From Nitrospirota bacterium (lineage in GTDB: Bacteria > Nitrospirota > Thermodesulfovibrionia > SZUA-242), in contig QJVM01000245.1 of NCBI GenBank assembly GCA_003235715.1, forward strand, positions 1-38,914: a DNA stretch of 38,914 bases. The letters run 5' to 3'. Below, piece by piece: positions 4,165 to 30,554 of this stretch. Position 1 is the first letter of the stretch, and each line of letters opens with the position of its first letter. The notes under the pieces were generated by a model. It searched no databases. It worked only from the letters and a program-made list of their open reading frames with translations, and was not told the DNA's origin. The position numbers and the translations under genes are program-made.

Positions 4165-5259
4165 ATGCTTTGCCATGCGAAATTGAGGGTTACACAACTC
4201 GTGGCCGGGCTGTTTCTGTGGGGCGTACTCTGCTCGAGCCCGTCAGAGGGAGGAGACCTTGTGACGACCGTGCCTTCGCACCACACCGCTTCAGGCTATC
4301 GGAACAGTTCCACCAACGATACGAAGGGGCTCGGGAGCCTTCTCAAATGGCGGTGGGAGGCGCTCTGGAAAAATATCCCTTCGGCGGACGCGTATCAGTT
4401 TCCGATGGCAGAAAACGACTCCGAGTTTCTTCGCAGCAACCGGGAGAAGACGACTCTCACGTGGATCGGCCATGCGACCCTTCTTCTCCAGATCAGGGGC
4501 AGGAATATTCTTACGGACCCTCATTTTTCAGAAAGGGCTTCACCCGTCCAGTGGGCCGGACCCAAGCGGGCCGCGCCCCCGGGCCTTGCGCTGGAAGACC
4601 TTCCACCGATCGATGCGGTTCTTCTGTCTCATGACCATTACGACTCGCTTGACGACGAAACCATACGCAGGCTGGCCGAACGACCCACGGCGGAAACGAC
4701 GGTTTATTATGTGCCGCTGGGTTTCAGGCACTGGTTCGAGGAGCGCGGGATTACCCGGGTCGTGGAACTGGACTGGTGGGAATCGTCGTCCACCGACGGC
4801 AAGCTGAAGGTTACGGCGGTTCCGATGCAGCATTGGAGCAAACGCACGCCGTTCAGCCGGAATGGCACGTTATGGGCGGGTTGGGTCGTGGAAGTGGAAG
4901 GTTTCCGGTTCCTCTTTGTCGGGGACTCAGGCTATGGGCCGCACTTCAGGGAGATCGGCGAGCGTCTGGGCCCCTTTGACCTGTCCGCCATCCCCATCGG
5001 GGCTTATGAACCCCGATGGTTCATGAAGAATCATCACATGAATCCGGAAGAATCCGTCATGGTTCATCAGGACGTCCGTTCCCGAAAATCCGTGGCCATG
5101 CACTGGGGTACGTTTGTTCTCACGGATGAACCCCTGGATGAACCTCCTCGACGCTTACGGACGGCTATGAACGAAAAGAACGTGCCTGCCGGGGATTTTC
5201 TCGTGCTGAGGCACGGAGAAACCATCGTGCTTGAACAGGAAGCCGAGACCGCGCCCTAG
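4165..5259 (+). CDS. MBL-fold metallohydrolase, NAPE-PLD/UlaG-like
   Basis: 364 aa; TLTWIGHATLLLQIRGRNILTDPHFSERASPVQWAGPKR...LLSHDHYDSLD...FVGDSGYG...MHWGTF. Confidence 0.9.
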   Translation: MLCHAKLRVTQLVAGLFLWGVLCSSPSEGGDLVTTVPSHHTASGYRNSSTNDTKGLGSLLKWRWEALWKNIPSADAYQFPMAENDSEFLRSNREKTTLTWIGHATLLLQIRGRNILTDPHFSERASPVQWAGPKRAAPPGLALEDLPPIDAVLLSHDHYDSLDDETIRRLAERPTAETTVYYVPLGFRHWFEERGITRVVELDWWESSSTDGKLKVTAVPMQHWSKRTPFSRNGTLWAGWVVEVEGFRFLFVGDSGYGPHFREIGERLGPFDLSAIPIGAYEPRWFMKNHHMNPEESVMVHQDVRSRKSVAMHWGTFVLTDEPLDEPPRRLRTAMNEKNVPAGDFLVLRHGETIVLEQEAETAP

Positions 5260-7019
5260 CCGGTGGAAGCGCTCGAAGAGGTACAGCCGAAATTCCAGGC
5301 GGCCTCCGGAAGCACGGGCAGCACCGAACGGCGGAGCCGTGCAAGGTTTCCCATTTCAAGAGCCAGGGCCGCGGCATTCTTTTCGAAAAAGGACTTGGGC
5401 TCCAGGGTCCATCCTTTGGCGAGCCTCTTCTGCTCGTTCTTCATCGTCTGGTAGATGATCGGCCCCGAGATGGTGGCAAAGGCCCGTGTTCGCCACCCGA
5501 ATTCGTTCGTCACCTCGCGCAGAAGCTGCCGTACCTCCCTTTCCAACCCTTTGTTGTCCCGGTACCATTTGCGCATGGCCCAGAGCGCACCGGCGTAGGA
5601 CGTCCTGAGCGGTCGGACGTCGTTGGCGTAACGCGTGCGGACCCTGCTGTCCGGGTGGTTTCTGTAGCGCATCCATCCTTTGAACATCGTTCGCATGAGC
5701 CTCAGGAGGCTGGGTCCGTTCCGTTCAAAGTCCTTCTGGAAGGCCTGAAGGATCAGGTGCTCTTCCTGTCCCTTGGGAATCGCCCTGTGACGGAAGTTAA
5801 AACGAAACTGGCCATGGGCGTCTGCCGGGGAGAACTCGGCCGGCGCCAGAAGGGAGCCGTCCTTCCTGTGTTTCTCATACAGGGGGGTTCCCGGCAGGGG
5901 GGTGTAAAGCATGAACTGGTGAAAATCAGTGCAATGGCTCACCGAAAATTCCACGGCCTGCTCGATGGTTTCCGCGGTATGGCTCTCGAGTCCGATGATG
6001 GAGGAACCCAGCACCCGGATGCCGTGGGACTGGAACTCTGTGACCAGTTCACGGGTATCCACACCCGAAAGTTTCCGGTAGTCGCTGTCTTGGCCTTCCA
6101 ATCCCATCCAGACCCAGATGATGCCCAGCCCGACCAATTGCTCGATGGTATAGGAGCGAAGAACCCGTGCCGAACTAAATACGTTCAGGGCCCAACTCTT
6201 TTTGTGCGCCTGCATCAGTTCCAGCAGGCGGAGGGCCCGGGTGCGGTGCAGGAGGAAGTTCTCGTCCATGATGAAAAAGGTCCGGGCCTTGAGGTTCTCC
6301 TCCATCTGAAGCATGATCGCAAACAGTTCATCACCGGTTTCGTAGAAGTTAATGAAGTTTCCCTTTCCGCCAAAGAGGGCTGAAGTGGAACAGAAGTTAC
6401 AGCCCATGGGGCAGCCTACTGAGGGAATCACAATCGCCGCGGTATCCCCGGGGTTGTCCGAAAGATCCTGTCCCAGGATTCGGGTGCTGTGGGCCGAGTA
6501 GACCATCGGGTGCTTAACCGGTGTGGTCTCATCCTGACCCAGGAATTTGCGGAACCAACGGATCCCGTCGCCCCGCACGATATAATCGGCGTCAATCGTC
6601 TTTTCGATGCCTCCCAGGTTGGTGACATGGCCGCCCACCACAATCGTGGCGCCTGGCTGATACTCCCGGATGAGCCTGCACATCTCCTTCACCTTTCCGA
6701 CATTGGGAATGATGCTGCTGATGCCGATGATGTCGTACTGGTTTTTGCGAACCTCATCGATAAAGCGGTCCCGGTCCGGGAAATCCAGGAGGGTACAGGG
6801 GGCCTCCAGATTGGCCTGTATCATCATCAGTCCGAAGGACCGGTGAAACATCCGGAGCGAAAAAGGGCCCTGAACACGTGTAACCTGGTTGTGATACAGT
6901 TCCATTGGGTTGATCTTCCGGCTGCCGTAATCGTCGTCTTGCGCGTACGGACCAAAGACGCTGCTCAAGAGAACCCGCGCCCGGGTTCCGGAGGGGTGGA
7001 CTGGATGTGCAGAAATCAA
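5256..7019 (-). CDS. B12-binding domain-containing radical SAM protein
   Basis: 587 aa; N-terminal Rossmann-like region (IIGISSIIPNVGKVKEM..IVVGGHVTN) and radical SAM motif GCPMGCNFCST (Cx3Cx2C). Confidence 0.92.
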   Translation of the reverse strand: MISAHPVHPSGTRARVLLSSVFGPYAQDDDYGSRKINPMELYHNQVTRVQGPFSLRMFHRSFGLMMIQANLEAPCTLLDFPDRDRFIDEVRKNQYDIIGISSIIPNVGKVKEMCRLIREYQPGATIVVGGHVTNLGGIEKTIDADYIVRGDGIRWFRKFLGQDETTPVKHPMVYSAHSTRILGQDLSDNPGDTAAIVIPSVGCPMGCNFCSTSALFGGKGNFINFYETGDELFAIMLQMEENLKARTFFIMDENFLLHRTRALRLLELMQAHKKSWALNVFSSARVLRSYTIEQLVGLGIIWVWMGLEGQDSDYRKLSGVDTRELVTEFQSHGIRVLGSSIIGLESHTAETIEQAVEFSVSHCTDFHQFMLYTPLPGTPLYEKHRKDGSLLAPAEFSPADAHGQFRFNFRHRAIPKGQEEHLILQAFQKDFERNGPSLLRLMRTMFKGWMRYRNHPDSRVRTRYANDVRPLRTSYAGALWAMRKWYRDNKGLEREVRQLLREVTNEFGWRTRAFATISGPIIYQTMKNEQKRLAKGWTLEPKSFFEKNAAALALEMGNLARLRRSVLPVLPEAAWNFGCTSSSASTG

Positions 7020-17655: not shown

Positions 17656-18279
17656 ATGCACCATGAACCTTCCCGGACGGAACAACACGACTGGGAGACC
17701 TGGTATGAGGACGAAGCGGTTGAGTCGATGCCGTGGTTTCTCCGTGAACTGGATCAGGATTTTGACCAGAGTCTCAAGGAACTGCAGATTAACGGTCAGA
17801 GACGCGCCCTGGATCTCGGTTCGGGGCCCGGGACCCAGGCGATTCAACTGGCGGACCGGGGTTTCCGGGTGACCGGAGTGGATATCTCTCCAACGGCCGT
17901 CCGTAAGGCTTCAGAAAGGGCCAGGCGTGAAGGAAAAAAGGTCGAGTTTCTTCAGGACGATATTCTTCATACCCGATTGAACGGAAGACGATTCGAGGTC
18001 GTGGTCGACCGGGGGTGCTTTCATACGCTTCCCTTGGAGAGTCGACCGGTTTATGTGAAGACCGTATCCGCGCTGCTTGAGGACCAGGGAGTCCTCCTTC
18101 TCAAGTGTTTCAGTCACCTTCAGCCCGGAACGGACGGACCCTACCGATTGACGCCGGATGAGGTTCGGGAGCAGTTCGGGAAGGACTTTGAGATCCTGTC
18201 CCTTCGGGATTCCATATTTCTCGGTAATCACAAACCCCCTCCGAAGGCCCTGTATGCGATTCTAAGGAAGCGGCAATGA
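17656..18279 (+). CDS. Class I SAM-dependent methyltransferase
   Basis: 207 aa; ALDLGSGPGTQAIQLADRGFRVTGVDISPTAVRKA motif I. Confidence 0.92.
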   Translation: MHHEPSRTEQHDWETWYEDEAVESMPWFLRELDQDFDQSLKELQINGQRRALDLGSGPGTQAIQLADRGFRVTGVDISPTAVRKASERARREGKKVEFLQDDILHTRLNGRRFEVVVDRGCFHTLPLESRPVYVKTVSALLEDQGVLLLKCFSHLQPGTDGPYRLTPDEVREQFGKDFEILSLRDSIFLGNHKPPPKALYAILRKRQ

Positions 18280-18322: not shown

Positions 18323-18886
18323 ATGAGCAGCCCCCTCACGGTTGTTCCCGCGGCCTATCCGTTCAGGCCTCTGCTCACCCTTATCCGGGACGAGGAAGGG
18401 CGGGTGCTCAAGCGAACCGTGACCCTGGAACTGGCCCAGGAAGCCCGCGAAACCTTCAACAGACTTCTTGACCCTTTCGCGCTCTCATGGGATGTGCTTG
18501 GGCCGCAGCTCAATGAGACATTTCCGGACCTGGGGGTCTGGCCCTGGGCGGTCGTGGCATTCCGGAAGGAGTTCCGGCTGATGGGACACGCCTGTTCCCT
18601 CCGAAAGAGTCCCCTGGACTATTCGCTCTCGTCCTATTCCCTTTGCGCCGATCCAAAACCCCAGGGTTCGGGAATCCCGCGGGTTTCGCTGGCATTGATT
18701 CAGAGGAAAGAGGTCCTCGAGGACCTTGGCCAGCGTTCCCTCCTGTTCAAGGGGGCTTGGGACCTCGTGCGGGACGCCGGGAACCAAACACGCTGGCTCG
18801 TGCTGCCCCCCGATCCCCCGGAGCCCTGGCTGGAGAGCCTGTCCAAAGAGGACGACCGGCTCTACAGGACCATGCTGAAAGGTTGA
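18323..18886 (+). CDS. Hypothetical protein
   Basis: 187 aa ORF following the methyltransferase gene on the same strand; no recognised domain. Confidence 0.6.
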   Translation: MSSPLTVVPAAYPFRPLLTLIRDEEGRVLKRTVTLELAQEARETFNRLLDPFALSWDVLGPQLNETFPDLGVWPWAVVAFRKEFRLMGHACSLRKSPLDYSLSSYSLCADPKPQGSGIPRVSLALIQRKEVLEDLGQRSLLFKGAWDLVRDAGNQTRWLVLPPDPPEPWLESLSKEDDRLYRTMLKG

Positions 18887-19038: not shown

Positions 19039-20343
19039 CTAAGTGCTCGTGCTTCGGAGAAGGGCATTGAAGCGGAGATAGAACCCGAAGCGATAAGGGG
19101 TTCTCAGGTTCGTTGCAGGATCAAAAAGTCGTCGGGTGATAGAGCTGACCGAGTAGAACTTTTTGTTTGCCTCGGTGGCGAGATGTCCAAGCTCCTCAGG
19201 TGACATGTGCCGGGGGACAAAGGCCGCCGTGTTGTATCCGAAATCGGGGTGAAGCCACCAGCGGCCATCGTACAGGAGCCGTCCCTCACTGGCGAGACCC
19301 TCGTAGAGCCGCGTTCCGGGATAGGGCATGAGCAGATGGAAGAAGGCCAGGGTGAAACGGCTCTGGATGGCGAACTCCACCGTCTCCCGGATGCTCTCCG
19401 GGGTGTCATGGTCATTCCCTATGATGAAAGAGGCCCAGGTCTGGAGCCCGTGGCGTCGGAGCCTTTCCAGCACCCTCTGGTAGCGGTCAAACCCCCGGAC
19501 GTGCCGTGACTTGTTGAGCCAGCGCAGGGAATCCGCCACGATCGATTCAAAGCCAATCAATTGCCCCACGCATCCGCTCTCGGCCATGAGTTCCAGGAGT
19601 TCTTTGTCCTCCACCATGTCGATCCCGGTCTGGGCCGCCCACCGGAGCTTCAGGGGGCGGATGGCCCGGCAGAGTTCCTTGGCTCGGGCCCGGTCCAGGG
19701 TCAGGTTGTCGTCCACGAAGAGCACCGTCCGGCGCGGGAGACCCTCGAGTTCCCGTACCACGTCCGCCACGGGTCTGTGGACGAGCCTTCGATCGAAGAA
19801 ACGGGAGACCGAGCAGAAATGACAGTCGAAGAGGCAACCCCTCGAGAACTGAACCAACGAGATGGGAAGATAGTTTTTGCCCTCGAAGAGGTTCCGCCTG
19901 GGAATCAATCCACCCTGTTGGGGGATATGCGGCGATCCCTTATAGACGGCCTGTAGGGTACCGCGTGAAAGGTCCTCTATAACCTGCGGCCAGACCTCTT
20001 CGGCATCCCCGACGAGCACGGCATCGGCATGAACTCCAGCTTCATCCGGAAGGAGGCTGGCGTGAATACCGCCAAGCACAACCTTTGCGCCCTGCGCCCG
20101 AAAACCGTCTGCCAGCTGGTACGCTCGACTCGCGGACCAGGTGTCGGTGGTGATGGCCACCAGGTCGAAGCCATTCCCCGGAGATACCGGTTTGAGGCGG
20201 TCATCCGCCAACACCACCTCGTGTTCCTCGGGAATAAGCGATGCCAGCACCGCCAGCGACAGGGGTTCCATGGGACCGTCGTTCAACCTGTAACGGCCCA
20301 GGATGCGCTGACTGATGGAAGGCTTGACGAGGAGAATTTTCAT
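19039..20343 (-). CDS. B12-binding domain-type radical SAM protein (operon gene 8)
   Basis: Start MKILLVKPSISQRI; Rossmann-like N terminus, radical SAM motif FSRGCLFDCHFCSV. Confidence 0.92.
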   Translation of the reverse strand: MKILLVKPSISQRILGRYRLNDGPMEPLSLAVLASLIPEEHEVVLADDRLKPVSPGNGFDLVAITTDTWSASRAYQLADGFRAQGAKVVLGGIHASLLPDEAGVHADAVLVGDAEEVWPQVIEDLSRGTLQAVYKGSPHIPQQGGLIPRRNLFEGKNYLPISLVQFSRGCLFDCHFCSVSRFFDRRLVHRPVADVVRELEGLPRRTVLFVDDNLTLDRARAKELCRAIRPLKLRWAAQTGIDMVEDKELLELMAESGCVGQLIGFESIVADSLRWLNKSRHVRGFDRYQRVLERLRRHGLQTWASFIIGNDHDTPESIRETVEFAIQSRFTLAFFHLLMPYPGTRLYEGLASEGRLLYDGRWWLHPDFGYNTAAFVPRHMSPEELGHLATEANKKFYSVSSITRRLFDPATNLRTPYRFGFYLRFNALLRSTST

Positions 20344-20350
20344 AAGGGCC

Positions 20351-21676
20351 TCAAAAAATATTGGGGGGGATTTTACGCCGGATATAGCTGCGGTAGTGCA
20401 GGCTGACGAAGAAAGCAAAAAGGTAAACGATCGGATGCCGCCGGGCATTCGGGTGCAACAGGGTGCGCCGCAGGATCGACCTCCAGCTGTAGGTCCTCCG
20501 ATAGACCTTCCAATAGCCCTCGGTCAGTTCCTCGGGAGACAGACGCAGGGGACGGTGCACGGCCCGAGCCCCCGTATACTGCGTGAAATCTTCCGTGAGA
20601 AGCCGCCCCTCTGATTTCACCTGATGGAAGAACCTTGTCCCGGGCATGGGTGTGAGGATATAGAATCGGGGCAGCGGAAGCCGGACCCTGTTGATAAAGT
20701 CCACGGTATCCCTGAGGGTCTCCCCGGTGTCGCCGTCGGTACCGAGGATCATTTCGGAGCTGACGGCAATGCCCGCATCCGAGATGGTGCGGATAGCGCC
20801 TTCGTGCCGGTCAACCCGGAGCCATTTCTTGTCGAGCCGGTCAAGACCCTCCTGGGACAGGCTTTCGATGCCGAAACTCATCATCCGCGCGCCGGACTCC
20901 ACGCAGAGACGGAGAAGCTCGGGGTGCCGGGCCAGTTCGAGAGAACACTGGGTGGCCCACTCCATTCGAAGCGGTCGGATGGACCGGCAGAGGTCGGCCA
21001 GATGGTCCGGCCTGGACACGATGTTGTCATCGATCAGGTAGAAACGACGGAAGCCGAGATCGCGGACCGCGCGGATATCCCTCACGACCTCGTCCACGGG
21101 TCGGGTGAGGTAACGGCCCCTGTACAGGCACGCAATGGAGCAGAAACTGCAGGTGTGCGGACAGCCGCGGCCGGCCTGGACCGGAAGCATTCCGCCGATG
21201 GGCTTTTGCGCGAGCAGCTCGTAGCGGGGGACCGGAAGGCCCGCGAGGGTGGTCAGCGGCCGGCTGTAGACGGACTTGAGCTTTCCCGTCGAGGAAAAAT
21301 CATGAAGCAGTTCCGGGAGCGACGCTTCCGCATCGCCGAAGACCACGCTGTCCACATGCTTCAACACTTCACGGGACATGAGCGAGGCCATGTAGCCTCC
21401 CATCACGACCTTCTTGCCGCGGTTCCGGAATTCGCGGGCCAGGTCGAGCCCTCGAAAGGTGGCATGGCCCATGCTGCCGATGCCGACCAGGTCGGCATCG
21501 GTGTCGGGATCAACCTCGTCCACAACTTCGAGCCGGATGTCCACCTCCCATCCTTCCGGAAGCAGCGCGGCCAGAAGCGGAAACGCCAGTCCCGGGAGGT
21601 ACAGGCGGGACTGTTTGCACAGGCTCCCGTCCGGAGCGTACTGCGTGGGCTGAACAAGAAGAAGCTTGGGCATCAC
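20351..21676 (-). CDS. B12-binding domain-type radical SAM protein (operon gene 7)
   Basis: 441 aa; KLLLVQPTQYAPDG, radical SAM motif GRGCPHTCSFCSIACLYRGRY; 4-bp overlap with upstream gene. Confidence 0.93.
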   Translation of the reverse strand: MMPKLLLVQPTQYAPDGSLCKQSRLYLPGLAFPLLAALLPEGWEVDIRLEVVDEVDPDTDADLVGIGSMGHATFRGLDLAREFRNRGKKVVMGGYMASLMSREVLKHVDSVVFGDAEASLPELLHDFSSTGKLKSVYSRPLTTLAGLPVPRYELLAQKPIGGMLPVQAGRGCPHTCSFCSIACLYRGRYLTRPVDEVVRDIRAVRDLGFRRFYLIDDNIVSRPDHLADLCRSIRPLRMEWATQCSLELARHPELLRLCVESGARMMSFGIESLSQEGLDRLDKKWLRVDRHEGAIRTISDAGIAVSSEMILGTDGDTGETLRDTVDFINRVRLPLPRFYILTPMPGTRFFHQVKSEGRLLTEDFTQYTGARAVHRPLRLSPEELTEGYWKVYRRTYSWRSILRRTLLHPNARRHPIVYLFAFFVSLHYRSYIRRKIPPNIF

Positions 21677-23061
21677 GAACCCGGAGAGCGCTTTTCACCA
21701 GAGGCGGCTTCGCGCATCTTTTCCATGTACTGCCGACGGACTCTCGACGCGCCAACCGCCATCCGCCAGAGCTGGACAGGACGATACTGCCGTAGATAGG
21801 AGAGCAGGACCCGAGGCTGGAAGAGAACTCGATCGTAGAGGGCGATGAGGTGCCGATAAAACTCCGACAGGCTCATCCGGGAGGGACGGAGGGCCACGTG
21901 GGCCAGGTCCCACTCCGTGAAATTCTCGCGGCCCAGGATCAGGGACTCGCCCGGGTCCGGCCAATCCGTGCCCGGAAGCGGAGTCAGCGGCTGCAGGTTT
22001 ACATAATGAATTCCAAGCCGGGTCAGAATGCGCCCGCATTCCCGGAACCGGTGATGATCCCAGTCGGGCGGGACAATCAGGGTCGCATAGCAGTCAATCC
22101 CCAGCCGGTTCAGCGTTTCCATGGCCCTGTGATTCACCTCCACCCCGGACCCCTTGTGGTAGGAACGGAGTTCGGGCTCGAAGAATGATTCAAACCCCAC
22201 GATAACGGTGCGGAGACCGAGGTTCCGGAATTGTTCCATCAGCCGGGGATTTGCGGCAATGAAGTCGGCCCGTCCGTAAATCAGGTACTGCTTGCGGAGG
22301 CCCCGGACCTCGACCCCTTGCAGGAATGCCTCGAGCCGGTTCCGGCTCGCAAGAAAATCGTCATCCACGATGTATACGTTCTCTTCCCGGAGTTCGGCAA
22401 GTTCGTCAAAAACCTCTTCAAGGGGGCGAACCTGGTAAGAGCCCCCTGTGATGGCCCGACAGAAGCAGAAGCGGCAGGTGTGCGGGCATCCAAAGGCGGT
22501 CTTGATCAGGGCCACCGGTTGATGAAAGATGTAATGGTAGCGATGGCGGTGCCGCTCGGTCTGGCTCCGATCAGGCTGCGGCATCCAGGAGTCGAGAGCG
22601 AGAAGGCGGGCGGCCTCCAGGCGCTCACCCCGCGTGAGAACACCCGCCGGAAGAGGATGCGACGTGCGCAGATGTTCCAGGAGTCCGGGAAAGGTCCGTG
22701 TGGCGTTTCGGATCACGCGGAAGTCCACGGAAGGGTCGTCAAGGTCGTCCGGGCAAACCTCGCAGTGCACCCCGCCGACCACGGTGACCGTCCGGGGAAG
22801 GAGCCCCTTGGCTTCACGGCAGTGCTCCAGCATGACAGGCACGTGCGTTATGTATCCGGTCAGCCCGAGGACGTCCGGCCGTACCCGCATCAGATGTTGC
22901 CGGAAGCTGCCCTTTTCCATCACCAGGTCCACCAACACCACCTCGTCGGGCGGATGAACGAGTGCGCACAGAACCTCCAGTTCGAGCGGCTCCACCAGCA
23001 TGAGGTGCTGAAGCCCGATGGTCTCGGGAGACGAGCGCGGCCGGACCAGCATGATCCTCAT
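21673..23061 (-). CDS. B12-binding domain-type radical SAM protein (operon gene 6)
   Basis: 462 aa; MRIMLVRPRSSPET, VTVVGGVHCEVCPDD, radical SAM motif AFGCPHTCRFCFCRAITGG. Confidence 0.93.
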   Translation of the reverse strand: MRIMLVRPRSSPETIGLQHLMLVEPLELEVLCALVHPPDEVVLVDLVMEKGSFRQHLMRVRPDVLGLTGYITHVPVMLEHCREAKGLLPRTVTVVGGVHCEVCPDDLDDPSVDFRVIRNATRTFPGLLEHLRTSHPLPAGVLTRGERLEAARLLALDSWMPQPDRSQTERHRHRYHYIFHQPVALIKTAFGCPHTCRFCFCRAITGGSYQVRPLEEVFDELAELREENVYIVDDDFLASRNRLEAFLQGVEVRGLRKQYLIYGRADFIAANPRLMEQFRNLGLRTVIVGFESFFEPELRSYHKGSGVEVNHRAMETLNRLGIDCYATLIVPPDWDHHRFRECGRILTRLGIHYVNLQPLTPLPGTDWPDPGESLILGRENFTEWDLAHVALRPSRMSLSEFYRHLIALYDRVLFQPRVLLSYLRQYRPVQLWRMAVGASRVRRQYMEKMREAASGEKRSPGS

Positions 23062-24089
23062 CCCGGCTCCTCCCGAAAAACCCTGGCTCTGGGGAAACGG
23101 TCTCGGTAGGAGAGCCAGGGGGCCAACCGTCTCAGGAGCGGATTCAGAAGCCCGGAGGTGTGCCTGCCGAACATGGCCAGTTCAACAGGCTCCGAGCCCA
23201 TGCGGGCCTTCGGGATACCGGCCGTCTGGCCCAGCTCGATCCGCTCGGCGCCGGCCTCGATGCCCATCCGGACAACGGTGGCGAGCTTGGCAAGGTAAAG
23301 GGCGCACGAGTCGGAGTCCTGGGACTGGCCTCCAAGGAAGAAGGAGAACGTTCCTCTGTCGAGAACCGTGATCACCCAGCCCATGAGCCGTCCGGCACGG
23401 GAGAAGGTGGTAAGACGGAAGGGCTCTTGAAGGTTTCGAAAGAAATCGTCCCGGAGTTTCTCGAGTCTGGCGTTGGAACGGGCGTGTACGGACTCATAAA
23501 GCCGGTGCATGGGTTCCGTGTAGGCCGAACACGGCCGCGTGGCCACGTCCAGACCCTCCATCCAACGTTCGGTGCGGGTAAGGCGTCGCCGATAGGCCGA
23601 CCGCAGCGAGGCGGCGTAATCTTCCCAGCGCGTCCACCGGTTGTTGAGAACGTATGTGGGCCATGTCCGCCCCCTGGCGAAGCCCCCTGCTGCAGCATGC
23701 GGGGGAAGGTTCAGGGCCAGGATCAATCCGCGTTCATTCCATCCGATGTGGTCGAGGAGAGCCTCCCGGGCATCCGCTTCACCCATCAGGCCCGCCGACG
23801 ATACGGAACACGGCACACCCACCACCTGCATGCGCACAGGACTGGGGATTCCCATAAAGGAGAAGAGATCGATCGAAAGGGAATAGACCACGGCCCCTGC
23901 GGCCAGGTCTCCTCTGCGGTAGAGCAGATAATAATGCTGCCGGCAGGGATTGTGGTGCTCGCAGTGGGCAAGGAAGGGACGTCTCTGGAAGATCGAGAGG
24001 CAAAGAGCATCCCAGGCATCGGGGAGGTCCTCTGCCGAGTCCAGTCGGAACAGTTCAGGGCTCATGGAGGAGGCCTTCAAAGATGCCAT
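23058..24089 (-). CDS. GNAT/FemAB-like acyl- or aminoacyl-transferase (operon gene 5)
   Basis: 343 aa; SLRSAYRRRLTRTERWM and central MGWVITVLDRGTFSFFLGGQSQDSDSCALYLAKLATVVRMGIEAGAERIELGQ resemble FemAB/BioF2-type acetyltransferase domains. Confidence 0.7.
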   Translation of the reverse strand: MASLKASSMSPELFRLDSAEDLPDAWDALCLSIFQRRPFLAHCEHHNPCRQHYYLLYRRGDLAAGAVVYSLSIDLFSFMGIPSPVRMQVVGVPCSVSSAGLMGEADAREALLDHIGWNERGLILALNLPPHAAAGGFARGRTWPTYVLNNRWTRWEDYAASLRSAYRRRLTRTERWMEGLDVATRPCSAYTEPMHRLYESVHARSNARLEKLRDDFFRNLQEPFRLTTFSRAGRLMGWVITVLDRGTFSFFLGGQSQDSDSCALYLAKLATVVRMGIEAGAERIELGQTAGIPKARMGSEPVELAMFGRHTSGLLNPLLRRLAPWLSYRDRFPRARVFREEPG

Positions 24090-25158
24090 AGTGTCGGTGA
24101 GCGGGCGGAGCGGCGCCTGAGACGCGCTCCAGGAGCCGGCGCACCATGTTCCGGCTCGGGGTGTTCTGTTCGAAAATAAAGCCCCCCTCGCAGGTGGCCA
24201 GGCCCTCCTCCCGGATGGGCGGGATGGCCTTGAGAATCATGGCGGCCACGGTGGCGGTGTTCCGGTAACCGGGCATCAGGGCGACCTCGGTAAATCTCAT
24301 GGTTCGGACGGGATGGGTCAGACGGTACCTGAAAACGTCCAGGATGCCGAGGTCCCTTCCAGGCCCGACCAGTTCGTTGAAATCCGGGTACCAGAGGAAG
24401 AAGCCTACCGGTTCTCCATTTCGTTCGGCGAAGATCAGGTTCTCATTTCGGAGCAGATGGCGAAACGGATGGAAGAGTTCTCCGTTCTCGCCGGGCAAGC
24501 GGTTGCTCCAGTAAGGCGTGTCGGCGTAGCTGAAGGACGTGTTGTCAATTCGGGTATAAAGCGCCACCTCCCGGTCGAGTTGACGTCTGTCCATGAACCG
24601 GACCGAGATGCCGCGACCATTGACCTTGAGGCCCGGCCCCTCAGCCCACCGGAAGAAGGGCTCCAGAGAAAACCGGTACGAGACGGTGACGCGACACGAG
24701 AATTCCCGGAAGTAGTCGGCATACCAGGGGGGAGAATAGGGAAGTCCGAAGACGGGCGGTTCATCGAAACGGTCCAGAAGAATCCCGGCCCCGTAATTCA
24801 GATGACCATTGAGGCCCACAACCAGGGTATGGGCTTCGGGCTTCCAGGCCCTGGCCTCACGCAGAAGGAAGGAGGCCAGCCCCCCAAGGCCCGGGAGGGC
24901 TTCGAAGAAGGCCACCTGCACATGACTGGGTAACTGGCGGTCGTGGATGAAGGCAAATCGGGCCACCGTCTGCCCCTCGACCTTCAACAGACAGGGCCGC
25001 ACTTCCGCATGTTCAAGGAACAGACTCGGTCCGTCCACGAGGAGGTCTGAAAGGGATTTCTCGGTCATCCGGTGAAACGGGTTGTCGCGATAGACCTGCT
25101 CCGGGAAACGGTGCCATTCCCTTCGCTCCCTTCTCTGGACGGCATCCCGGACCATCAT
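24055..25158 (-). CDS. GNAT-like N-acyltransferase (operon gene 4)
   Basis: 367 aa; LIFAERNGEPVGFFLWYPDFNELV...FTEVALMPGYRNTATVAAMILKAIPPIREEGLATCEGGFIFEQNTPSRNMVRRLL resembles GNAT motifs. Confidence 0.65.
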   Translation of the reverse strand: MMVRDAVQRRERREWHRFPEQVYRDNPFHRMTEKSLSDLLVDGPSLFLEHAEVRPCLLKVEGQTVARFAFIHDRQLPSHVQVAFFEALPGLGGLASFLLREARAWKPEAHTLVVGLNGHLNYGAGILLDRFDEPPVFGLPYSPPWYADYFREFSCRVTVSYRFSLEPFFRWAEGPGLKVNGRGISVRFMDRRQLDREVALYTRIDNTSFSYADTPYWSNRLPGENGELFHPFRHLLRNENLIFAERNGEPVGFFLWYPDFNELVGPGRDLGILDVFRYRLTHPVRTMRFTEVALMPGYRNTATVAAMILKAIPPIREEGLATCEGGFIFEQNTPSRNMVRRLLERVSGAAPPAHRHYGIFEGLLHEP

Positions 25159-26291
25159 GAAAAAACCTCGGCCGCCGGCGGAAAACCCAGGAAGCGGGTA
25201 TAGAGGGCGGCACAGTAGGCGCCGGCATTTCCAAACACCACAAGGTCTCCCGGTTCGACGCCAGGCACCCTGCAGTTCCAGGAGAGAAAGTCGCGGGAGT
25301 ACGTTGAGCAGCCGAACACGCAGGAGGGGACCTCCGCCCCGGAAACCACCCGGCCGCTGCGAAGAATCCAGACGGGATGAAACGCAGAGTCGGGATAAAG
25401 AAGGGGTCTTGGAAACTGGGCGCTCGAAGCGTTCACTCCGATGCCCTGCTGTGCGCCGACGGGCTTGATGTCGACAGCCCGGCAGACGAAGAGACCGGCC
25501 CGGCCCCCGATGAGGCGGCCGGGCTCGATGACCATCCGCAAATGTCGGCCCGCGGCGCTGCAGGCCCCTTCCATCACGTGCACCAACATCCTCCCGTAGC
25601 TCCCCAGATCAAACGGCTGTCCTCCGGAATCCTCGAGGCCGAAACCCCCACCAAAATCAAGATAGGTCAGACCTGGAAAGAAATGGGCAAAGGCGGTCAA
25701 TGTACGGTAACAGCGTTCAAAGTAGTCCAGATCGCAGATGTCCGTCCCTGCGTAAAGATGCAGGCCCTCGATGTCGGGGGCTCCGGCGAGCCGGCGAATT
25801 TCGTTTGGCTGCAGGCCAAGCCGGCTTTCCGGGCCGATGAAGTAGCCGCCTCGTGTCCTGCGTGCATGGACCATCGTGCCCAGATTGCAGCGGATTCCGA
25901 AGGGCGAGGCCGGATAACGTTGTCGCCAGGCGTCCACCTGCCCGAGGGAGTCGAGGATGACCCGGATACCGCTCCGGTGCGCCTGCTCCATCGTGGATTC
26001 ATCCATGGCCGAAGCCGCGTACACGACCTCGCCGGGGCCACAACCGGCTGCGAATGCGGCGTCCAGGTGAGCCATGGAATTGACGAACAGGCAAAGCCCT
26101 TCCTCGCGGATGATCGAGAGAAATCTTGGGTGCGGATTGGCCATGGTGGCGAAGTGGATATTGGTGTCTGGCCAGGGCAGGTTCCGGAACGAACGGCAGG
26201 TGGTCCGGATGAGGTCGGTGTCATAGACATAGAACGGGGTGGAGACCTCCTCCGAGGTCTCAAGCACCAGGGCTAACTGGCGGGGCGTCAT
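25155..26291 (-). CDS. Type III-fold PLP decarboxylase homologue (DapDC/Orn decarboxylase-like) with Met in place of the Schiff-base Lys (operon gene 3)
   Basis: Start MTPRQLALVLETSEEVSTPFYVYDTDLI; conserved GLHLYAGTDI, LDFGGGFG, EPGR; expected [YF]A[VL]KAN reads FATMAN. Confidence 0.85.
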   Translation of the reverse strand: MTPRQLALVLETSEEVSTPFYVYDTDLIRTTCRSFRNLPWPDTNIHFATMANPHPRFLSIIREEGLCLFVNSMAHLDAAFAAGCGPGEVVYAASAMDESTMEQAHRSGIRVILDSLGQVDAWRQRYPASPFGIRCNLGTMVHARRTRGGYFIGPESRLGLQPNEIRRLAGAPDIEGLHLYAGTDICDLDYFERCYRTLTAFAHFFPGLTYLDFGGGFGLEDSGGQPFDLGSYGRMLVHVMEGACSAAGRHLRMVIEPGRLIGGRAGLFVCRAVDIKPVGAQQGIGVNASSAQFPRPLLYPDSAFHPVWILRSGRVVSGAEVPSCVFGCSTYSRDFLSWNCRVPGVEPGDLVVFGNAGAYCAALYTRFLGFPPAAEVFS

Positions 26292-27073
26292 CGGTGGGAG
26301 CGGCCCGAGAGGCCCCGCAGCTTGAAGTGCAGCAGACCCAGAAGAAGAGCAAAAAGACCCAGAGCCCAGGCGGCGCACCCGCGAAGAGCCAGCCAGTTGA
26401 CCCGGTCGTCGAACGCCGCGCTGAAGACCAGCTGGGTGGGATAATACGCGGGAAGCCACCGGATGAGGTCCATCCGTTCAGCGGCCGTGTAATAGACAGG
26501 ATTCTGGAGCCACGCGGCATCGATGTCTGCCAGCAGGGCGGAGGCAAGTACGGCGACCAGGAAATCCCGGGTCACACTCCCGGCGATGGCCCCGGCCGTT
26601 CCGTAGATGATGGAAATGAGAAGGTATCCGGATAACGCAATCATGGCCTGCTTGAGCGACACCCACTGGGCCACGAGAAGCGTGGTGCTGACCGCCAGCG
26701 CTGCGGCGAGAAGCACGAAGAATCCGAAACGCCCAAGCAGGAGGGTCACAGGCCGGAGTCCCATGAACACTCCGTGCCGCCAGTAGTCGAAGTCCTGCTG
26801 GAAGAGAGTAAGGGCGAAGTAGGCACTCAGGAAACCGGCCACCGAGGCGGAGACGAAAACGATGGAAACGTCGACCTGGGGAGGGGTGAGCCGGACCACG
26901 TCGTTCTGAAAGTAGACCTCGATGGGAACGGGCAACGCTCCTGCGGTGAGCCGCACAATGCCCAGAAAGATGCCTGGAATGAGAAAGAGGAGGGCCAGTC
27001 CGACCCGGTTTCGGAGCAGTTCCCGGAGGGACAGACGCAGTATCCGGGCGGCGATGGAGAGGTCAGCCCTCAT
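26288..27073 (-). CDS. ABC-2 type transporter permease (operon gene 2)
   Basis: Start MRADLSIAARILRLSLRELLRNRVGLALLFLIPG; about six hydrophobic segments; adjacent to ABC ATPase. Confidence 0.85.
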   Translation of the reverse strand: MRADLSIAARILRLSLRELLRNRVGLALLFLIPGIFLGIVRLTAGALPVPIEVYFQNDVVRLTPPQVDVSIVFVSASVAGFLSAYFALTLFQQDFDYWRHGVFMGLRPVTLLLGRFGFFVLLAAALAVSTTLLVAQWVSLKQAMIALSGYLLISIIYGTAGAIAGSVTRDFLVAVLASALLADIDAAWLQNPVYYTAAERMDLIRWLPAYYPTQLVFSAAFDDRVNWLALRGCAAWALGLFALLLGLLHFKLRGLSGRSHR

Positions 27074-27680
27074 GCACGCGGCCTTCCCTGAGCGTGAGGA
27101 TGCGACCAAAGCGGTCCCGTTCGTAGGCGATGTGGGTGATCATGAGGATGGCGGCCCCGGAGGCCCTCAGTTCCCCGATCAAGGACCAGTACATTTCGTA
27201 CATGGCCCAGTCAAAACCATCGCACGGCTCGTCACACAGGAGCAGTTCCGGTCGGTGTAATACCGAAGTCACAAACTTGACCTTCTGATAGGTTCCGGCG
27301 CTCAGGTTTCCGATCAGGGTGAGGAGATGAGCCCCCAACTGGAACCGCTCGATGAGGGACGTGCACCAGGCGGCCGAAACGTCCCAGGTCCGTTGGAGAA
27401 TCGCGGCGGCGAGATCGAAGTGTTCAGAGACGGTCAGGCGGCGATCCAGATAGTTGTCCTGAGGGCAGTAGCCGAGGTGTTGGTTCAGACGGACTTGGCC
27501 GGTGTCCGGACGGCTGAAACCAAGGAGGCACCTGAGGAGTGTGGTCTTGCCCGACCCGTTCGCCCCCACAAGGGCCACAACTTCTCCGGATTCCACGACG
27601 AAGCCACAGTCTTCAAGAACCACTTTACGTCCGTATGATTTCCGAACGCTCTGGCAATCGAGGTAAACCGGGTGGCTCAT
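27063..27680 (-). CDS. ABC transporter ATP-binding protein (operon gene 1)
   Basis: 205 aa; Walker A GANGSGKTT, signature-like NLSAGTYQKVKF, Walker B ELLLCDEPCDGFD, H-loop ITHIAYE. Confidence 0.95.
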   Translation of the reverse strand: MSHPVYLDCQSVRKSYGRKVVLEDCGFVVESGEVVALVGANGSGKTTLLRCLLGFSRPDTGQVRLNQHLGYCPQDNYLDRRLTVSEHFDLAAAILQRTWDVSAAWCTSLIERFQLGAHLLTLIGNLSAGTYQKVKFVTSVLHRPELLLCDEPCDGFDWAMYEMYWSLIGELRASGAAILMITHIAYERDRFGRILTLREGRVHEG

Positions 27681-27904
27681 GTTCAGGCGATGCGAAGTAC
27701 TCCGAAAGAGCTTACCGTATTCATCCGGCTCAGAGGAACAGAGCTTGCCGGCTCGATACTTAGTATACTCCTGCTTCCTTCAGACAACCCGCGTATCGTG
27801 ACCCAAAAGTGATTTCTCCCTGAAATCAGCCGGATTCGGCCCCGTCCCCCTTTCCGAGGTTCTTCGCTGAATTTGCAGACCGGCACCCAAAGGAGGAAAG
27901 ACCG

Positions 27905-28196
27905 ATGAGACCGAATTCATTTATACCCGCCGCCTTCATCCTGAGGCTGATGTTGTCCATAGGAACAGCTCTGGCCGGAAGCACGATGGAAGAGGAATCA
28001 ACTCGACTCCGAAATGAACACCGGCATGATGAAAGAAATCAGGGGGATGCATAGGAAGGAGGACATGACGGATAATGCGAATACGATGAAGGAGGAAAGT
28101 ATGAGGCACGATTCCCGGGCGACCGGCACGGACCGTAAGGGACAGAAGCCCATGCCGGAAGAAAAGGCGCAGGCTACGAGGGAAGGAATGAAGTGA
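27905..28196 (+). pseudogene. Possible frameshifted small secreted Met-rich protein gene
   Basis: Good RBS (AGGAGGAAAGACCG) before ATG at 27905; signal-peptide-like MRPNSFIPAAFILRLMLSIGTALAG, stop at 28054; Met/charged-rich continuation (MNTGMMKEIRGMHRKEDMTDNANTMKEES...) lies in another frame, 28014..28196. Confidence 0.4.
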
Positions 28197-28235
28197 TTCT
28201 TCCCGGCTCCCTGGAGCAGACCCCTGCGCCAATTT

Positions 28236-28259
28236 CCATGAGAGGTTTCTCTTTCATGG
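28236..28259. terminator. Candidate terminator hairpin between convergent genes
   Basis: CCATGAgaggtttctctTTCATGG imperfect inverted repeat followed by GTTTT, in the gap between 28196(+) and 28284(-). Confidence 0.35.
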
Positions 28260-28283: not shown

Positions 28284-28838
28284 CTAGAAAAGAAACGGGA
28301 TAAATCTCTTTGTCCGTTTCATGTAGTCCAGATAGACGTTTCCGAAGTACCGGAGGTTCTCCTTCTCCTCGGCCAGGGATGTGGCCACCAGAAACAGGCA
28401 GGCGGCGGAGGCCAGTCCGGCCGCCGGCCAGGACGGGCGTTTGAGATACGCTCCCCACGCAAGAAACATCAGTGAGCTGTACAGGGGATGCCGGATGTAA
28501 TGGAACGCCCCTGCCGTAACCAGCCGTGTTGTCTTTTCCAGCCGGATCAGGGCGACTTCGTTTCGAGAGGCGTCAGGTTTCCCGAGAATCCGCAGAAGCG
28601 TGATGCCATGAATAACGAGGAAAAGTGAAATGAACAAGAGATGCCATGAGATGATCTGCAGGAGAGAGCCGGGATTAAGGAACCAGTATTCCATGTTATA
28701 CAGGATCAGCACCAGGATGAGTTCCCACGCAAAGAAACGGTAGAACCCGTGCAGCGTCGGGTTACGCAGGGACTCGCGTGATACCAGGAGCATGAATCCG
28801 GATACCACTACAAAGAGAATCAACTTTTCTGCTGGCAT
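28284..28838 (-). CDS. Isoprenylcysteine carboxyl methyltransferase/PEMT-like membrane methyltransferase
   Basis: 184 aa; multiple TM segments and FHYIRHPLYSSLMFLAWG...LAEEKENLRYFGNVYLDYMKRTKRFIP motif. Confidence 0.85.
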   Translation of the reverse strand: MPAEKLILFVVVSGFMLLVSRESLRNPTLHGFYRFFAWELILVLILYNMEYWFLNPGSLLQIISWHLLFISLFLVIHGITLLRILGKPDASRNEVALIRLEKTTRLVTAGAFHYIRHPLYSSLMFLAWGAYLKRPSWPAAGLASAACLFLVATSLAEEKENLRYFGNVYLDYMKRTKRFIPFLF

Positions 28839-28934: not shown

Positions 28935-30554
28935 TCAGTCGCCCGTAAGGTCCCGAAAAAAATCATTCCCCTTGTCATCTACCAGAATGAAGGCCGGAAA
29001 ATCCTGCACTTCTATCTTCCACACCGCCTCCATGCCCAGTTCCGGGTAGTCGATGCACTCCACGCTTCGGATGTTTTCCTCAGCCAGCAGGGCCGCCGGC
29101 CCGCCGATGGAACCCAGGTAAAACCCTCCATGCCTGTGGCAGGCCTCGGTGACTTGGCGGCTCCGGTTCCCCTTGGCGATCATGACCAGACTTCCGCCAT
29201 GGGACTGAAGAAGGTCCACGTAAGAGTCCATCCGCCCTGCGGTGGTCGGGCCGAAGGACCCGGAGGGTTTACCGGCCGGCTTCTTGGCCGGGCCTGCGTA
29301 ATAGACCGGATGGTTCATCAGGTAGTCCGGCAGGGGCTTTCCCGCGTCGAGCTGTTCCTTGAAGCGGGCGTGGGCGATGTCCCGGGCCACGATGATGGTC
29401 CCGGTGAGGGAGAGTCGGGTGGCCACAGGATGGCGGCTGAGTTCAGCCCGAATGACCTCCATGGGCTGGTTCAGGTTGATGGAGACCGCGCCCGAATCCT
29501 GCCTTTTGCGAAGTTCGTCCGGGATGAGGCGGCCGGGATTCCGATCCAGTGCTTCGATCCATATCCCGTTTCGGTCGATCCGTGCTTTCACATTGCGGTC
29601 GGCGGAGCAGGATACGCCCATCGCGATGGGACAGGACGCGCCGTGCCGGGGCAGCCGGATCACACGGACATCGTGGATGAAGTACTTTCCGCCGAACTGG
29701 GCCCCGATGCCGCTTTCTCTTGCGGCCCTGGAAAGTTTCTCCTCCAGGGCAGGATCGCGGAAGGCCTGCCCGCTATCGTTGCCTCGGGTGGGCAGGCTGT
29801 CGAGGTAACCGGTCGAGGCCAGCTTGACCGTCTTCAGACAGGCCTCGGCGCTGGTGCCGCCGATAACAAAGGCGAGGTGATACGGCGGGCAGGCTGCGGT
29901 CCCGAGCGTTTTCATCTTGCTCACCAGGAAGGCCTCAAGGCTTTCGGGGTTGAGCCGTGCCCGCGTTTCCTGGTAGAGAAAGGTTTTATTGGCGCTCCCG
30001 CCTCCCTTGGCCACGAACAGGAAGTGGTAAACGTTTCCGCTGACCGCATGGATATCGATTTGCGCGGGCAGATTGGAGCCGGAATTGCCTTCGCGGTACA
30101 TGTCGAAAGGAACGGTCTGGGAATACCGGAGATTTTCCCCGGTATAGGTTTCGAAGATGCCGCGGGAGAGTTCCAGGGCATCGTTGCAGCCGGTGAACAC
30201 GTCCTCGCCTTTCTTGGCAAAGACGATGGCCGTGCCCGTATCCTGGCAGAGGGGCAGTTCAAACCGGGCCGCCACCTCGGCGTTCCGGAGCATGGCCAGG
30301 GCCACGCTCCGATCGTTGGACGAGGCTTCGGGATCGGAAAGGATCCGGGCCACCTGTTCGTTGTGCGCCGGCCGAAGCAGAAAAGAGACCTCGCGCATGG
30401 CCTCCCGGGCCAGATACGTGAGACCCTCGGGTGCAACATTCAGAACCTCCCGAGGACCGCACCGGGATAGGCTTACGTGATTCTTTGTGAGCAGGCGGTA
30501 CGGGGTTTCATCCTTCTGGAGCGGAAAGGGTTCCTGGTAGTGAAACTCTGTCAC
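28935..30554 (-). CDS. Fumarate hydratase, class I (Fe-S)
   Basis: 539 aa; [80 protein letters not shown]. Confidence 0.95.

Follow-up and report, generated by a model that had tools for sequence, protein, structure and literature searches.

What does a tightly packed bacterial operon make when its genes encode radical SAM enzymes, acyltransferase-like proteins and a relative of the vitamin B6-dependent decarboxylases, and do all of its genes belong to one unit? The question is raised by positions 19039–27680 of a 38,914-nucleotide contig (QJVM01000245.1, termed here the window) from a Nitrospirota bacterium, which is contig 18 of a 3.24-Mb assembly of 271 contigs that is 95.8% complete. An earlier reading of the sequence alone (the initial annotation) described eight minus-strand open reading frames (ORFs), tightly packed from 27680 to 19039, and this is borne out by a reading of the ORFs and their junctions. 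In the direction of transcription they are termed ABC8, PERM7, PLP6, GNAT5, GNAT4, rSAM3, rSAM2 and rSAM1. The conserved unit is a core of five genes, PLP6-GNAT5-GNAT4-rSAM3-rSAM2; rSAM1, PERM7 and ABC8 are variable accessories. We consider it an evenly balanced proposition that the locus represents a horizontally spread and so far undescribed type of biosynthetic cassette with this core, whose product is an exported, acylated and radically modified amino compound.

The core was traced through PLP6. A search of plasmids gave PLP6 relatives with 32%–40% identity in Mesorhizobium and Sinorhizobium. As a lone query against genome contigs PLP6 yielded no match, and an alignment with the rhizobial relatives was needed; used as the query on species genomes, this alignment detected 15 loci (individual loci carry L numbers) with a PLP6 identity of 42%–53%. 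Apart from the window, 11 loci contain the complete core with gene order and strand unchanged. The core proteins are 34%–63% identical among loci and the core genes mostly overlap by 4–8 bp, often by 4 bp and 8 bp. The complete core spans at least five phyla, those named being Bacteroidota, Bacillota, Spirochaetota, Krumholzibacteriota and Myxococcota. Ruminiclostridium hungatei DSM 14427, an anaerobe in culture, also carries the core, and the question of the function of the core is thereby directly testable. In L056 an extra radical SAM gene and a methyltransferase gene are inserted within the core, in L054 PLP6-GNAT5 is followed by a non-B12 radical SAM gene, and in L044, L052 and L057 the core is interrupted by contig ends. 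Additional methyltransferases and HpnR-like radical SAM proteins are found in L050, L056 and L058.

This conservation of five genes in order and orientation across distant phyla supports the view of the operon as a compact biosynthetic locus. Co-conservation of all eight genes, which the initial annotation proposed as a check, extends to the five core genes and not to rSAM1, ABC8 and PERM7. Orthologues of rSAM1 are found in 3 of the 11 complete loci (L048, L049 and L053) and elsewhere the ABC pair has no orthologues; thus the eight genes do not form one conserved unit. The opinion that the locus fits no recognised class was upheld, as family models and the literature gave no orthology to a characterised pathway. 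Every protein is from a known superfamily, and neither the gene combination nor the LysA-like family without the Schiff-base lysine, to which PLP6 belongs, was found in the searchable literature (subscription papers lie outside this scope).

Because the loci had been found through PLP6, GNAT4 was tried as an independent anchor. In the phylum of L058 (395 genomes), the sole full-length match is the L058 cassette genome itself (E-value = 1e-155), and the next matches are partial domain matches (E-value = 1e-24 or weaker). GNAT4 orthologues are restricted to the cassette within the genomes sampled. A search of the phylum of the window, in which 395 other genomes were sampled, gave no PLP6 orthologue at an E-value below 1e-25, and the operon has a GC content of 0.62–0.63, compared with 0.55–0.60 for most of its flanks. 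The missing close orthologues and the slightly higher GC content fit acquisition from elsewhere. With GNAT5 as anchor in the same phylum, only homologues of 25%–30% identity were detected, and the short stretches around them contain none of the other seven proteins.

PLP6 (25155–26291, minus strand, 378 aa) is the first core gene and encodes a fold-type-III protein of the LysA/ornithine decarboxylase (ODC) type with the Pfam domains Orn_Arg_deC_N and Orn_DAP_Arg_deC (PF02784/PF00278). Its score with the LysA model TIGR01048 is 157 bits, below the cut-off of 297.9. Residues were read from an alignment to E. coli LysA (1knw), and the numbering is counted from that alignment. Met50, within the motif FATMAN(P), is at the position of the LysA Schiff-base lysine K54. 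Thr330 is at the position of the catalytic Cys342 (GPxCESGD in LysA), where the family motif is GxSTYSRD or GxTTYSRD, and Tyr180 is at the position of His191. The residues E268, R271 and Y378 of LysA and its glycine-rich phosphate loop are retained; the corresponding E256, R259, Y359 and G215–216 of PLP6 are invariant in 26 aligned rows, and G214 is nearly so. This pattern of replaced and retained residues recurs across the relatives. The roles of K54, C342, H191, E268, R271, Y378 and the glycine loop are well established for the LysA family.

The Schiff-base lysine is absent in all relatives read at this position. Methionine is found everywhere, with valine only in the cyanobacterial locus L041. 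The change to methionine is not an artefact of the search, as it is also carried by L056, L061, L065 and L076, whose letters fall outside the search pattern [IL][HL]FATMAN. In a tree with LysA proteins (a quick method, with no bootstrap) the lysine-less proteins make up one of the two sides of a branch with an SH-aLRT of 99. An ordinary lysA is located elsewhere in the window genome, and PLP6 is therefore not an enzyme of the lysine pathway. The label “PLP-decarboxylase homologue” does not hold in the sense of a decarboxylase. With both the Schiff-base lysine and the catalytic cysteine replaced, PLP6 is by its sequence not a decarboxylase. It shares with LysA, ODC and BtrK the fold, a full-length alignment, the pyridine-nitrogen Glu, the phosphate-site Gly loop, the Arg and the Tyr, but differs in the changes of Lys to Met, catalytic Cys to Thr and ring-stacking His to Tyr, in forming a separate clade and in its association with radical SAM enzymes. 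A second family model, TIGR03099 (exosortase-A/PEP-CTERM-associated pyridoxal phosphate (PLP) decarboxylase), gives 92 bits, far under its cut-off of 478. In the exosortase-A/PEP-CTERM set, too, a homologue of fold-III decarboxylases is paired with a FemAB-like protein; no exosortase gene was recognised among the neighbours examined.

A B6 enzyme family can lose its lysine and remain active. The ColD/E1/SpnQ 3-dehydratases, which depend on pyridoxamine phosphate (PMP), are fold type I proteins in which Lys is changed to His and which perform lysine-less PMP chemistry (PMC8987622). The likeness to PLP6 is by analogy only: these enzymes use His as a base, whereas PLP6 is of fold type III with Met. 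A tentative proposal, which we hold on the doubtful side, is that the clade represents a new class of fold-type-III B6 enzymes without the Schiff-base lysine that carry PMP or a PLP-substrate adduct as cargo and act jointly with cobalamin radical SAM enzymes, in a radical C-methylation or rearrangement on a B6-activated amine. The main rival to an active role sees in PLP6 a true pseudoenzyme, a non-catalytic scaffold or regulator standing to its relatives as antizyme inhibitor does to ODC, or comparable to PLPBP among fold-III proteins, with all of the chemistry done by the radical SAM and GNAT-fold enzymes. Loss of both Lys and Cys throughout the lysine-less clade is what such a protein would display, but the residues of the B6 pocket are fixed or almost fixed in the 26 sequences, which a mere scaffold would not require, and translational coupling links PLP6 to enzymes of different clusters. 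We regard the pseudoenzyme as a serious possibility that falls short of likely.

The lysine-less family is found in other settings as well. On the rhizobial plasmids and in Terriglobia the lysine-less gene directly follows genes for a SPASM-type and a B12-type radical SAM protein, and the other genes of the cluster differ. The association of the family with radical SAM enzymes is recurrent, not universal. In Sinorhizobium meliloti GR4 plasmid pRmeGR4a (L039, 8165–13928) a QueA-like gene (Queuosine_synth) lies just before the SPASM radical SAM, B12 radical SAM and lysine-less genes, and S. medicae (L040) has the same arrangement. In Bradyrhizobium sp. 21 (L060, 8518–14220) the lysine-less protein is accompanied by an MFS transporter, a methyltransferase, a spermidine-synthase-like protein and an ATP-grasp protein; no radical SAM protein was recognised next to it. 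Planctomycetales bacterium ZRK34 (L076, 9926–15466) has a distant lysine-less fold-III protein with the motif IMANDNP, and its gene is followed by one for a protein with a metallophosphatase domain and one for a tRNA_SAD-containing protein that resembles class II aminoacyl-tRNA synthetases. In Mesorhizobium huakuii 7653R plasmid pMHb (L043, 1399–2934) the match to the lysine-less gene is in three separate pieces, while L038 and L042 match without interruption, and this points to a broken copy in L043. Automatic annotation labels the plasmid relatives “diaminopimelate decarboxylase”, “alanine racemase” or “decarboxylase”, and this would mislead metabolic models.

The initial annotation assigned two acyltransferases to the operon. 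Solved structures searched with sequence profiles yielded nothing of use for these GNAT-fold proteins, and predicted folds were used for this reason. GNAT5 (24055–25158, minus strand, 367 aa), the second core gene, has no Pfam family match, but orthologues with 38%–49% identity (14-member alignment) indicate that it is a real gene. Its AlphaFold2 model (predicted local distance difference test score, pLDDT, of 87) has the tandem GNATs 5kga and 2wpw as best Foldseek matches (E-value = 1e-12), and the acyltransferase assignment stands for GNAT5 as a predicted tandem GNAT. It is less apt for GNAT4 (23058–24065, minus strand, 335 aa), the third core gene, which matches the Pfam family Acetyltransf_6 (PF13480). 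The AlphaFold2 model of GNAT4 (pLDDT = 88) displays a predicted FemX-like double-GNAT fold, with FemX (7z6a, E-value = 1e-11) and the aminoacyl-tRNA-dependent Sbb17/Sba18 as best Foldseek matches, and GNAT4 may use aminoacyl-tRNA. The structural neighbours of both GNAT4 and GNAT5 are amide-forming enzymes.

A functional lysine has been described in FemX and DhpH-C (PMC12945691). In sequence, K286 of GNAT4 is invariant in a 13-member alignment, and its motif may match the one that holds this lysine (K305 in FemX). The double-GNAT fold is shared by GNAT4 with FemX, Sba18/Sbb17 and VlmA/DhpH/PacB (PMC12945691), and the C-terminal Lys motif is possibly equivalent.

FemA and MprF/aPGS are also among the Foldseek neighbours of GNAT4. 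Together with FemX they invite a reading in which GNAT4, as a FemX/MprF-like aminoacyl-tRNA transferase, aminoacylates either a lipid or a precursor of the cell wall, with remodelling of that lipid by the radical SAM enzymes. The genomic surroundings offer something to this envelope modification, as in both L048 and L049 the gene directly upstream of the core encodes an HpnN-like RND/MMPL protein, and L058 has a fatty acid hydroxylase gene upstream of its core. The occurrence of the cassette is very sporadic for a wall function, however, and the core is accompanied by no conserved lipid-backbone gene, and we judge envelope modification to be unlikely.

The assignment of three B12-type radical SAM proteins is confirmed, as rSAM1, rSAM2 and rSAM3 each carry B12-binding and Radical_SAM domains in Pfam. 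In the window, 5256–7019 (minus strand) encodes a fourth protein with a B12-binding domain (domain match at 6564–6842), and there are 22 B12-binding domain matches in the window genome in total. The fourth core gene, rSAM3 (21673–23061, minus strand, 462 aa; PF02310 and PF04055), has a CxxxCxxC motif that is invariant in 12 sequences. The fifth, rSAM2 (20351–21676, minus strand, 441 aa), encodes the most conserved core protein, with 55%–63% identity across phyla and invariant cysteines at positions 20, 172, 176, 179, 183 and 244 (12 sequences). The accessory rSAM1 (19039–20343, minus strand) has a radical SAM motif read as CLFDCHFC. All three resemble HpnR, BchE, HpnJ and ApyD in having a B12-binding domain followed by a radical SAM domain with CxxxCxxC, but all scores are far under the equivalog cut-offs.

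Weak scores of rSAM1 and rSAM2 with ApyD, an enzyme of ribosomally synthesized and post-translationally modified peptides (RiPPs), and a higher score (298 bits) for the B12 radical SAM protein beside a rhizobial PLP6 relative, are what could be expected if the radical SAM enzymes modified a ribosomal peptide encoded nearby. Within 1.5 kb of the core, distant loci were found to have no small ORF in common; any further ORF family of at least 40 aa is limited to four loci at most, and no precursor-recognition domain was seen. With no shared precursor peptide found, this reading is weak, and we consider RiPP maturation very improbable. A hopanoid modification locus with rSAM3 as the HpnR C-3 methylase, to which HpnR as the best model for rSAM3 (a full-length match of 182 bits) and the HpnN-like transporters of L048 and L049 would point, is largely refuted and was rejected, since the HpnR cut-off is 650 bits and a squalene-hopene cyclase domain is unmatched in the window genome and in 9 of 13 other cassette genomes.

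The preferred reading, a cassette for an exported, modified amino compound, can be set out protein by protein. The cassette probably makes a small molecule by chemistry so far undescribed. GNAT4 and GNAT5 would attach one or two acyl or aminoacyl groups to an amino compound, the donor for GNAT4 perhaps being aminoacyl-tRNA, as in FemX. C-methylation would be performed by rSAM3, and rSAM2 (with rSAM1 in the window) would act on unactivated carbon by a further radical reaction, be it methylation, oxidation or cyclisation. PLP6 would hold its B6 cofactor with no Schiff base to a lysine, as PMP or a preformed PLP-amine adduct, and would either catalyse lysine-independent chemistry in the manner of ColD/E1 or offer its partners the amine substrate. 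The product would be N-acylated or aminoacylated, perhaps lipid-like, and would exit via whichever exporter adjoins the cassette: an ABC transporter here, an ABC pair in L050, and RND/MMPL proteins in L048 and L049. It is from these transporters of different families beside the core that we infer export.

Several points weigh against this reading. We infer the product, the substrate and the activity of the cassette alike, and binding of a B6 cofactor by PLP6 is deduced solely from its residues. The Met of PLP6 stands where ColD-type enzymes retain a catalytic His, and PLP6 may for this reason be non-catalytic. GNAT4 is only 12%–17% identical to FemX-type proteins, and the analogy is structural. 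The exporter is not conserved, and its link to the pathway in the window genome consists only of overlapping genes. The phylum survey is a sample of genomes. If the reading is correct, the cassette represents a widespread class that rules keyed to nonribosomal peptide synthetases, polyketide synthases, RiPPs or terpenes would probably miss, and the PLP6 clade comprises B6-fold proteins in which the pocket is retained and the residue that defines the mechanism is lost.

The two accessory genes at the 5′ end of the operon are ABC8 (27063–27680, minus strand), which encodes an ABC transporter ATPase (ABC_tran in Pfam) of the DrrA/NodI-like export class by sequence, and PERM7 (26288–27073, minus strand), which encodes an ABC-2-like membrane protein with about six transmembrane-like stretches. 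PERM7 has no Pfam family match and displays no similarity to the ABC-2 permease beside L050. The ABC8/PERM7 overlap is 11 bp with the PERM7 ATG at 27073, or 47 bp with a TTG at 27109. Overlaps of 4 bp are found at PERM7/PLP6, PLP6/GNAT5, GNAT4/rSAM3 and rSAM3/rSAM2. The GNAT5/GNAT4 overlap is 11 bp with the GNAT4 ATG at 24065, or 35 bp with a longer possible start at 24089, and rSAM2 and rSAM1 are separated by 7 bp, given the rSAM1 ATG at 20343. With the likeliest starts, the operon has overlaps of 4–11 bp and a single 7-bp gap. Long plus-strand ORFs within it (e.g. 20624–21799) are GC-rich shadow ORFs, and a consensus scan found no sigma-70-like promoter.

Genes on the opposite strand had been described at both flanks. 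This is the case downstream (18323–18886 and 17656–18279); upstream, the genes at 28284–28838 and 28935–30554 are on the minus strand. The first of these lies beyond a gap of about 600 bp and gives weak PEMT/ICMT matches. The second is a fumarase-like gene that had no match in two relatives compared, and an empty site is thus not definable there. Between the operon and these genes, 27725–28240 (plus strand) contains two short ORFs in different frames, one of 49 aa that is signal-peptide-like and an overlapping one of 60 aa that is Met-rich and hydrophilic. They are possibly one small exported protein split by a frameshift, or a chance occurrence.

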